Shown: positions 7,612 to 32,268 of the stretch, in pieces
Layout: the number at the start of each line of letters is the position of its first letter
Numbering within the stretch: position 1 is the stretch's first letter
Assembly: GCF_000266885.1 (NCBI RefSeq)
Contig: NC_018020.1
Location: 2,170,001 to 2,234,000 of the forward strand
Source: Turneriella parva DSM 21527
Lineage (GTDB): Bacteria; Spirochaetota; Leptospiria; Turneriellales; Turneriellaceae
Reading direction: 5' to 3'
Length of the DNA stretch: 64,000 bases
The notes under the pieces: generated by a model
What the model was told of the DNA's origin: nothing
What the model saw: only the letters and a program-made list of their open reading frames with translations
Databases searched by the model: none
Position numbers and translations under genes: made by a program

Positions 7612-7998
7612 CTAATCCAGCAGATCAATGGCGTCAACTTTTCTAAAGTGCGCATCTAGAGTATAGAGGGGTACGCCATGCTGCATCGCTAACGCAGCGA
7701 TCCAGAGGTCATTCACGGGAATAGGCGTACCCGCTTTGCGCAACTGCGCGTAGATCTTTGCGTAGTAGTGTGTCGTTTCGCTGTCCGCGAAAAGTACCCT
7801 CACTCGTTCGGAGGCGAGAAATTTTTGCAGAACCTTCTCGTTCTGTTGTGCTTTGCTGCCAGCAGCAAAGCCTGCCCTGAGTTCGCCTAAGCTAACGAAG
7901 CTCAGGTAGACATGCGTTGCCCTCTGTATTTTAGAAAGTGCCGCCGCATTGCCCCGAGCAAGTTCTGTGTACGTATTCGTGTCGAGCAAGAGTTGCAT
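7612..7998 (-). CDS. PIN-domain toxin, VapC family
   Basis: A 128-residue PIN-domain ribonuclease, the toxin of a type II toxin-antitoxin module; VapC toxins cleave tRNA or rRNA. The acidic metal-binding residues are in place: LLDTNTYTELA (first Asp, residue 5), the conserved SLGELRAGF glutamate, NDLWIAALAMQH (third acidic, with I.A) and YTLDAHFRKV (fourth Asp). Its ATG follows the TAG of the antitoxin directly (TAGATG), so the two are translationally coupled. Free toxin would be active only when the antitoxin is lost. The residues needed for activity look intact. Confidence 0.9.
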   Translation of the reverse strand: MQLLLDTNTYTELARGNAAALSKIQRATHVYLSFVSLGELRAGFAAGSKAQQNEKVLQKFLASERVRVLFADSETTHYYAKIYAQLRKAGTPIPVNDLWIAALAMQHGVPLYTLDAHFRKVDAIDLLD

Positions 7999-28827: not shown

Positions 28828-28896
28828 GAGGCTGCAAATCGGCGGCCTGATTCTTAAAACTGGCTTTCGCGCTGTTTTTATGCTAAATTATGGCCC

Positions 28897-29307
28897 GTGG
28901 CAGAAAACAAGCAACCTCTTATTGTTCCGATAAACCAGCTGCTGCCGCCTGAGCTTTTTATTCTACCGGTACGGCACCGGCCGGTTTTTCCCGGCATGGT
29001 CACGCCGCTTGTGATTGCCGAAGGCAAAATAGCCGAAGCGATTGAGAACGTGCACAAGCAGAATCAATACCTCGGGCTCGTGCTGCAGCACGATGATACG
29101 AATACCGAAGTTGGGCCCGATCAGCTGTTTAAGGTCGGCACTGCGGCGAAGATACTGAAGCGCATTAACCTGCCAGAAGGCGGTATGCACCTGCTGGTGA
29201 ATTCGCTCGAGCGTTTCAAGATTAACTCATTTACCCTCAGATCGCCGCACATGCTCGCGAAAGTCGATACCAGATTGAGGCGACAGAGGTGCGCGATAAA
29301 GAACTGA
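28897..29307 (+). CDS. lon: ATP-dependent protease Lon, N-terminal fragment (frameshifted)
   Basis: This frame of 136 codons starts at GTG and holds the start of the Lon N-terminal substrate-binding domain: LFILPVRHRPVFPGMVTPLVIAEGKI, then NQYLGLVLQHDDTN, VGTAAKILKRINLPEGGMHLLV and LERFKINSFTLRSPHMLAKVD. At about 29268 the reading frame breaks: after LAKVD it should continue YQIEATEVRDKELIALM, which lies in the -1 frame. One T appears missing (GAT ACC for GAT TAC). The frame then runs 13 meaningless codons to a stop. The rest of the protein is the next feature, which overlaps it. Confidence 0.85.
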   Translation: MAENKQPLIVPINQLLPPELFILPVRHRPVFPGMVTPLVIAEGKIAEAIENVHKQNQYLGLVLQHDDTNTEVGPDQLFKVGTAAKILKRINLPEGGMHLLVNSLERFKINSFTLRSPHMLAKVDTRLRRQRCAIKN

Positions 29308-31232
29308 TCGCGCTGATGCGCAGCGTGTTGAATCAGGCGAAAGAGATGATGACTGAGAACCCGTACTTCACCGAAGAGATGAAGCTGACTCTCATCAACG
29401 TCGAAGAACCTGGCAAGATTGCCGATTTCGTGTGCTCAGTCTTGAATCTCAAGCGTGAGGAGTTTCAAGAGATACTCGAAACCTTCGACATTCGCCGCCG
29501 GCTCGAGCGTACGCTGCAATTTTTGGCGCGTGAGCTCGATCTCGTCAAATTGCAACGCAAGATTCAGGGCAAGGTAAATCAGGGGGTTGAACATAACCAG
29601 CGCGAATATTATCTGCGCGAACAGCTCAAGGCAATCAAGAGTGAGCTGCGCGGCCCTGAAACGCGCGATAAAGATGGCGAGTATTACCGCCAGAAGATCG
29701 AAGCTGCAAAGTTGCCGCCCGAAGCAAACGAACGCGCGCTCGATGAATGCTCGAAGCTCGACTATGTCGACCCGAGCGCACACGAATATACGGTCATTCG
29801 CAACTATCTCGACACGATTCTCGATTTACCATGGAACGTACCGGCGATCGATGCGATTGAACTGCCCTATGCGCGGCAGGTGCTGAACCGTGACCACTTC
29901 GGCCTTGACGACGTGAAAACGCGCATTCTCGAATACCTCGCCGTGAGAACACTCAAGGCCGATGTCAAAGGGTCGATTCTCTGCCTTGTCGGCCCGCCGG
30001 GTGTTGGCAAAACTTCGCTCGGGCGCTCTATCGCGGCCGCGATGAAAAAGAAATTCTTTCGCTTCTCGCTTGGGGGTATGCGAGACGAGGCCGAAATCAA
30101 AGGCCATCGCCGTACCTATATCGGGGCCATGCCGGGTAAGATTATCCAGGGGCTCAAGAGCACCAAGTCGCGCGACATGGTGCTGATGCTCGACGAAATA
30201 GACAAACTCGGGCGTTCATACCATGGCGACCCGGCGTCGGCATTGCTCGAAGTGCTCGACCCGCAGCAGAACTTCGAGTTTCGCGATCATTTTCTCGATC
30301 TGCCATTTGACCTCTCGCAAATTACTTTTGTCACGACGGCCAATACGCTCGATTCAATACCCGAACCGCTGATTGACCGCATGGAAGTTATCAGGCTACC
30401 GGGCTACATTCTCGAAGAGAAGATGCAAATCGCAAAGAAATATCTCGTAGGCCGGGCGATCAATGATTCTGGCCTCTCGAAAAAATACGCCCCGGTGATT
30501 TCGACTCAGGGCATGCGATTTCTGATCGACTCGTATGCGCGCGAAGCAGGCGTGCGCCGGCTCGAAAAAGAAATTCAGAAGCTCTACCGCAAGGCTGCTG
30601 CAGCGCATGTAGAAAAAAGATCGTTTCCGAAGGTTTTGGGGCCTAAAGAAATACCCAAATACCTGGGTAAGCCAGTATTCACACGCGCAGACGAATTCAC
30701 CAAACTCAGCATCGGTTCGGCGCTGGGTCTTGCCTATACCTCGATGGGTGGCGCGACGCTGACAATCGAGTCCCGTAAATTCTCTGGCCGCGGCCGCGTG
30801 AAATTTACCGGACACATCGGTAAGGTGATGAACGAAAGCGCCGAGATAGCCGTGAGTTATGCGCGTTCTCTGGAATCCGATGAAAAATTCTGGACCAAGA
30901 ACGACATACACATTCACGTGCCCGACGGGGCGACACCAAAAGATGGCCCGTCGGCTGGCATCACAATCACCACCGCGCTGCTATCTCTGCTGCGCAACAA
31001 GAAAATCAAGGCGGGTTTCGCTATGACAGGTGAAATTCGTCTTTCGGGTGACGTCTTGCCGATCGGCGGTCTGCGCGAGAAAATCGTCGCGGCCCGGCGC
31101 GTGGGTATCAAGAAGGTCATTTTCCCGTTCGATAACCTGCGCGACTTTGAAGAGCTACCCGGCGACCTAAAAAAAGGAATCAAAGTGTTTCCCGTAAAGC
31201 ACTACAGTGAAATTGAAAAGTTACTCTTCTGA
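29289..31232 (+). CDS. lon: ATP-dependent protease Lon, main fragment (AAA+ and protease domains)
   Basis: A 647-codon frame starting at a GTG that covers the rest of Lon: the coiled-coil linker (REYYLREQLKAIKSELRG), the AAA+ module with Walker A GPPGVGKTSLG (about residue 234 onward) and Walker B VLMLDEIDKLG, and the protease domain with the catalytic Ser in DGATPKDGPSAGIT and the Lys in GGLREKIVAARR. Catalytic residues look intact. With the N-terminal piece the full protein would be about 778 residues, normal for Lon. If the frameshift is real, the organism could make this part only from the internal GTG, lacking the substrate-binding N-domain. Lon degrades misfolded and regulatory proteins. 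Confidence 0.85.
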   Translation: MRDKELIALMRSVLNQAKEMMTENPYFTEEMKLTLINVEEPGKIADFVCSVLNLKREEFQEILETFDIRRRLERTLQFLARELDLVKLQRKIQGKVNQGVEHNQREYYLREQLKAIKSELRGPETRDKDGEYYRQKIEAAKLPPEANERALDECSKLDYVDPSAHEYTVIRNYLDTILDLPWNVPAIDAIELPYARQVLNRDHFGLDDVKTRILEYLAVRTLKADVKGSILCLVGPPGVGKTSLGRSIAAAMKKKFFRFSLGGMRDEAEIKGHRRTYIGAMPGKIIQGLKSTKSRDMVLMLDEIDKLGRSYHGDPASALLEVLDPQQNFEFRDHFLDLPFDLSQITFVTTANTLDSIPEPLIDRMEVIRLPGYILEEKMQIAKKYLVGRAINDSGLSKKYAPVISTQGMRFLIDSYAREAGVRRLEKEIQKLYRKAAAAHVEKRSFPKVLGPKEIPKYLGKPVFTRADEFTKLSIGSALGLAYTSMGGATLTIESRKFSGRGRVKFTGHIGKVMNESAEIAVSYARSLESDEKFWTKNDIHIHVPDGATPKDGPSAGITITTALLSLLRNKKIKAGFAMTGEIRLSGDVLPIGGLREKIVAARRVGIKKVIFPFDNLRDFEELPGDLKKGIKVFPVKHYSEIEKLLF

Positions 31233-32268
31233 AAATGCGGCTGCGGTAGCCGCGCATTCGAACGATGCAGCTGGCTTTCCCTGGAGCCGGGTGTCGATCG
31301 CGCCGATGATGGATATCACCGACAGGCGCTTTCGCTATTTCATGCGACTGATTAACCCGAAGGTTCGGCTCTATACCGAAATGATCGTCTGCCATGCGAT
31401 CGTGCGCGGCGATCGCCAGCGATTGCTCGAATACGATGCCTCGCAGCACCCGGTAGTTCTGCAGCTGGGGGGCGACGACCCGCAGTTGATGGCAGAGGCC
31501 GCCGCGATTGCTGAGGGTTTTGGTTACGATGGCATCGATATTAATTGCGGATGTCCGAGTACACGGGTTGAGAGCGGCAATTTCGGCGTTTGCCTCATGC
31601 GTTCACCCGATCTCGTCGCGCAGATTGTGTCTGCCGTCAAGAATAGAGTGGCGATTCCGGTCACAGTGAAGTGCCGAATCGGCATTACCGGTGAGTTCTC
31701 AGAAGATACATTGGCACGTTTTGCCGGTGGTGTGTTTGCTGCAGGGGCTGACTCATTGACCGTGCATGCGCGCACTGCCACGATCGGTGGCCTGCGTAAC
31801 GCAGATGACACTCTTGGCGAAACGCGATTTGCGGCGCTGACACCGAAACAGAATCGCGAAATACCTCCGCTGCAATATGACGTCGTCTACCGCCTCAAAG
31901 ACCTGATGCCAGCGCGCACCATCGAAATTAACGGGGGTATTAAGACGCGCGAGGCAATTCAAGCTCACTTGCAGAAGGTCGATCGCGTGATGCTGGGCCG
32001 TTTGGCGCACGAAGACCCCTGGTTCTTTTACGAGCCGGCAGCCGGCGGTGTCGAAACTCGCTGGCAGGTTCTCGACAAAATGGCCGAATATGCGAGCCGG
32101 TACGAGAAACCAGATTTATCCGCATCGCGCTTTTTCACGAACATGCTGAATTTGTTTCATGGCATACCCGGCGCACGCCATGTCAGGCGCTTTCTGAGCG
32201 AAGAGGGGCGCACGCTGACCCCGGCTGCGGCCGTTCACGCGCTGCAGGCCGCAGGCGTTGTTGCATAA
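31207..32268 (+). CDS. dusA: tRNA-dihydrouridine synthase (DusA-like)
   Basis: A 353-residue flavin enzyme that reduces uridine to dihydrouridine in the tRNA D-loop. VSIAPMMDITDRRFRYFMRL followed by VRLYTEMIVCHAI is the DusA signature start; PVVLQLGGDDPQLMAEAA, GYDGIDINCGCPSTRV (with the catalytic Cys), IPVTVKCRIGI, DSLTVHARTATIGG and IEINGGIKTRE build the FMN-binding TIM barrel, and HEDPWFFYE is near the helical domain. It starts at a GTG that overlaps the 3' end of lon by 26 bases, so the extreme N-terminus (about 25 residues before VSIAPMMD) is uncertain. Confidence 0.85.
   Translation: MKLKSYSSENAAAVAAHSNDAAGFPWSRVSIAPMMDITDRRFRYFMRLINPKVRLYTEMIVCHAIVRGDRQRLLEYDASQHPVVLQLGGDDPQLMAEAAAIAEGFGYDGIDINCGCPSTRVESGNFGVCLMRSPDLVAQIVSAVKNRVAIPVTVKCRIGITGEFSEDTLARFAGGVFAAGADSLTVHARTATIGGLRNADDTLGETRFAALTPKQNREIPPLQYDVVYRLKDLMPARTIEINGGIKTREAIQAHLQKVDRVMLGRLAHEDPWFFYEPAAGGVETRWQVLDKMAEYASRYEKPDLSASRFFTNMLNLFHGIPGARHVRRFLSEEGRTLTPAAAVHALQAAGVVA

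Follow-up and report, generated by a model that had tools for sequence, protein, structure and literature searches.

The lon gene of Turneriella parva at positions 28897–31232 of the window (the whole stretch of DNA analysed here, 64,000 nucleotides, positions 2170001–2234000 of contig 1) does not run through in one reading frame, and this raises the question of whether the break is a programmed or working arrangement, a mutation or an error in the sequence, and of what Lon the strain is left with. The genome comprises 4,409,302 bases in two contigs, with contig 1 accounting for 4,384,015 bases; an excerpt of the published report on the genome of type strain H (DSM 21527; GenBank CP002959) gives a chromosome of 4,384,015 bases and a second replicon of 25,287 bases (PMC3746428). 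The strain lives freely and is reported to be non-pathogenic, and the closest relatives of the genome are Turneriella-type spirochaetes.

Open reading frames with translations revealed two pieces in different frames (ORF1 and ORF2, Table 1), with ORF2 opening at a GTG at 29289, 16 bases before the stop codon of ORF1 (29305–29307). Both pieces match a single Pfam profile, LON_substr_bdg (ORF1, profile positions 1–111; ORF2, positions 125–200), and therefore represent one gene that has been split. The upstream frame is free of stops from 28855 to 29305, while the open stretch of the downstream frame reaches back no further than a stop at 29223. BLASTn against the nearest relative (L005) returned 86 % DNA identity over 2381 columns with exactly one gap, located at the break, and alignment with 11 relatives placed a one-column gap at approximately 29267–29269, through which 11/11 relatives read straight. 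The one-base frame break near 29268 proposed in a sequence-only reading of this DNA is thus borne out by the two frames, the single gap and the 11 unbroken relatives. That reading also named the missing base as T, which disagrees with the codon found at the break in most of the 11 aligned relatives.

Table 1. Features of the broken lon locus and its surroundings (positions within the window)
Feature	Position	Strand	Description
lon 5′ piece (ORF1)	28897–29307	+	136 aa; N-lobe of the Lon substrate-binding domain followed by ~12 residues out of frame, up to a stop
One-base frame break	29266–29269	+	Relative to all 11 aligned relatives
GAGG, Shine–Dalgarno-like	29277–29280	+	8 bases before GTG 29289; computed duplex energy
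lon 3′ piece (ORF2)	29289–31232	+	647 aa; helical part of the N-terminal region, AAA+ ATPase, lid, S16 protease domain
Next gene, presumed tRNA-dihydrouridine-synthase-like	31207–32268	+	Longest ORF; overlaps lon end by 26 bases (31207–31232)

The protein encoded across the two pieces has the same domain order as LonA-type ATP-dependent proteases (MEROPS S16; NCBIfam TIGR00763, endopeptidase La), but in T. parva the coding sequence lies in two frames and the N-lobe is unjoined. The N-terminal substrate-binding, AAA+ and S16 domains that make up a LonA chain are all present across ORF1 and ORF2, split over the two frames, and are joined in a single chain in 11/11 aligned relatives. As the sequence-only reading had it, the ATPase and protease parts all belong to the downstream frame: the Pfam matches to AAA, Lon_lid and Lon_C fall on ORF2, which thus keeps both the AAA+ module and the S16 protease domain intact, and in its translation we could read what we take to be the Walker A and Walker B motifs and the Ser and Lys motifs. 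ORF2 alone scores 829 bits against the curated LonA family model TIGR00763 (cut-off 608.05), compared with 890.5 for the intact Lon of the nearest relative. From the same start as 28897, the latter protein is 778 aa long, in agreement with the proposed full length of about 778 residues.

An orthologue of the broken lon is present in 17/17 other genomes of the order (61–97 % identity), and its frame is unbroken in 16 of these, with open frames of 779–835 aa; 11 of the 17 were assessed by alignment and the other six by open-frame length alone. The remaining genome (G006, 54 % complete) has a match that starts at base 1 of a contig and stops short of the break site. The order of lon and the next gene is kept in 5/5 named Turneriella-type loci tested, and an RND gene beyond the next gene in 4/5. 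We take the product of the next gene from its sequence, without a family search, to be tRNA-dihydrouridine-synthase-like. Its longest ORF shares 26 bases with the end of lon, so expression of this gene could also suffer from a stop within lon.

A decaying pseudogene would be expected to combine a frame lesion absent from its orthologues with relaxed constraint or additional lesions. The first feature is present (16/17 orthologues unbroken, one cut at a contig end); of the second there is no sign, with one gap in 2381 columns and dN/dS values of 0.01–0.02. Compared with the nearest relative, both pieces are under strong purifying selection (dN/dS 0.0098 for the 5′ piece, 123 codons; 0.0207 for the 3′ piece, 647 codons), and no further stops or indels were found beyond the break in the region aligned with this relative. 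The codon comparison drew on six relatives. The 18 amino-acid differences in the 3′ piece divide into six derived in the window sequence, six derived in the relative and six unclear, so that the window branch of this piece has no excess of replacement changes. The four differences in the 5′ piece (three window-derived, none derived in the relative, one unclear) lean slightly towards relaxed constraint in the window, in counts too small to weigh. With 12 window-side changes (95 % upper bound 19.4), the unconstrained share of the window branch is at most ~2.9 %, or at most 3.9 % if all 18 differences are counted, a bound on age that is rough because the window branch was taken as half of a dS of 0.911. 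Constraint on both lon pieces rules out an old decaying pseudogene and, together with the lack of any other lesion, leaves two readings: the break arose very recently in a gene used until then, or the gene is still in use and the assembly is wrong.

Programmed ribosomal frameshifting or transcript slippage could in principle yield full-length Lon from such a locus, as a single one-base slip anywhere in 29226–29304 would join the two open frames. However, 29200–29309 contains neither an X XXY YYZ heptamer, whichever frame is read, nor four equal bases in a row, and the 11/11 aligned relatives need no slip, which makes this explanation negligible. A programmed −1 frameshift gene was therefore rejected: the slippery heptamer is lacking, and the split is not conserved, the relatives being in one frame. 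Judged from the sequence, one of two lon paralogues carries either an ordinary frameshift of recent date or a sequence error, and not a programmed device.

The second paralogue lies on contig 1 at 1968800–1970653, 230 kb from the broken lon, as an open frame of 843 residues, and is ~45 % identical to the first. Two Lon genes were found in 17/18 genomes of the order searched, T. parva included, and the incomplete genome G006 shows only one; a literature search on bacteria that carry two lon genes yielded nothing relevant among the matches listed. The sequence-only reading considered a loss of Lon; loss of all Lon is rejected, and on this evidence we would not expect strong general effects on stress tolerance or persistence, given that the other Lon is intact. 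The suggested link to antitoxin turnover has a basis in the window, where we detected a VapC-like PIN-domain match (7633–7989, minus strand, 49.2 bits), but it is a general and not a local one: PIN matches number 31 across the T. parva genome, of which 30 exceed the family cut-off, so finding one near lon means little. For a free-living spirochaete, this is a large VapC-like set.

The GTG at 29289, which had been proposed as a possible opening of a Lon without its N domain, is preceded by a strong Shine–Dalgarno (SD)-like sequence. Its computed SD energy, obtained with the letters that we assume for the 16S tail, is −7.4 kcal/mol, a value matched by 4.6 % of 3853 internal start codons in the 464 kb around lon, although this yardstick is rough, since true starts were represented by whichever site scored best within the first 80 codons. 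At the same place in the 11 relatives, SD energies range from −0.1 to −3.9 and a start codon is present in 3/11. Of the seven positions in the SD test, 29361 and 29364 were excluded as they are not start codons; with six in-frame candidate starts near the break, the chance of one equally strong SD site is ~0.25. Restart at GTG 29289, giving a Lon that lacks the N-lobe, is plausible from these features. At the native GTG start of lon (upstream region 28877–28896), computed SD pairing is near nil (−0.9), as it is in L005 (likewise −0.9), while L006 and L009 show strong pairing at this position; the comparison places the start at a constant distance from the break and is inaccurate for relatives that start elsewhere.

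For the properties of such a product, we turned to E. coli Lon. In an alignment to the 784-residue chain 6u5z, which we take to be this protein, the break falls at residue ~115 and GTG 29289 at ~122. Excerpts of a study of truncated forms place the N domain of the E. coli protein (EcLon) at residues 7–118 and the next domain at 124–302, and describe Lon-d106 (EcLon without residues 1–106) as retaining processive proteolysis with intensive autolysis and Lon-d172 as unstable (PMC7800598). The predicted T. parva restart product would fall between these two; they were made in the laboratory, whereas the T. parva truncation arises from a frame break. By analogy, the restarted T. parva Lon would be reduced to an unstable core that does not capture damaged proteins selectively.

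These features could also be read as a working split Lon, in which coupled translation yields an N-lobe peptide together with an N-lobe-less Lon and the cell uses both products. The strength of the SD-like site at GTG 29289, the lack of a comparable site in the relatives and the position of the break at the border of the N-lobe all point this way, as does the downstream gene, which would otherwise lie behind 1.9 kb of mRNA that is not translated. On the other hand, one such site among six candidate starts could arise by chance, the arrangement was found in no other genome of the order searched, and the age limit leaves little time for adaptation, so we regard a functional split as very improbable. 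We are just as sceptical of its more specific form, in which a lineage-specific SD–GTG overlapping the first stop would provide a coupled N-lobe-less Lon that does not select damaged proteins while the paralogue performs quality control.

The choice is then between a mutation and an error in the assembly, the latter having been raised in the sequence-only reading and still a serious contender. If a residual base error is responsible, the strain makes a normal full-length second Lon. The rest of the broken gene is intact and constrained, as a pure sequence error would equally leave it, and the break is unique to one assembly, with 16/16 informative relatives unbroken. Excerpts of the genome report describe a 454/Illumina hybrid assembly whose error rate is put below 1 in 100,000 (PMC3746428), which allows up to ~44 errors in the T. 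parva genome. Against this stand the very deep Illumina polishing (1,675x reads) stated in the same excerpts (PMC3746428), a site without a homopolymer and the state of neighbouring genes. No run of at least four equal bases occurs in 29200–29320, ruling out a long-homopolymer miscall or polymerase slippage as the cause. Among 88 orthologue-like genes in the 464 kb around lon, none other is split, in a regional comparison for which one relative supplied 705 ORFs from 800 kb, so the sampled assembly is not full of breaks and a frameshift-ridden assembly is ruled out for this region. On balance, we favour a genuine one-base indel of very recent origin in the sequenced stock that split one of the two T. 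parva LonA paralogues (probability roughly 0.58) over an assembly error, which is a substantial but less probable alternative. Literature searches gave nothing about this lon gene of Turneriella, judged by titles, and nothing on the T. parva locus under truncated or frameshifted Lon, judged by the matches listed.

If the indel is real, translation from 28897 would yield no more than a short N-lobe peptide, ending at 29307, and any Lon from this locus would have to come from restart at GTG 29289 and would lack the N-lobe. This product may keep the active core but, to judge from truncated E. coli Lon, would probably be unstable and poor at catching damaged proteins, and general Lon work would fall to the intact paralogue elsewhere. 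In this account, the break, the unbroken relatives, the constraint on the two pieces and the second paralogue are observed; we infer that the base change is real, that restart occurs and what the product would be like. A parallel is provided by E. coli B, a natural lon-deficient laboratory strain. There, too, lon is disrupted in a laboratory stock, but T. parva keeps a second lon and its lesion is one base and not a larger change.

Until reads are at hand, annotators should label this locus a lon paralogue with a broken frame, and not the strain's only Lon. An error would mean that a single base of a reference genome has to be reviewed. A real base change would make the strain a natural test of the role of the second Lon in this spirochaete order, with the other Lon untouched.
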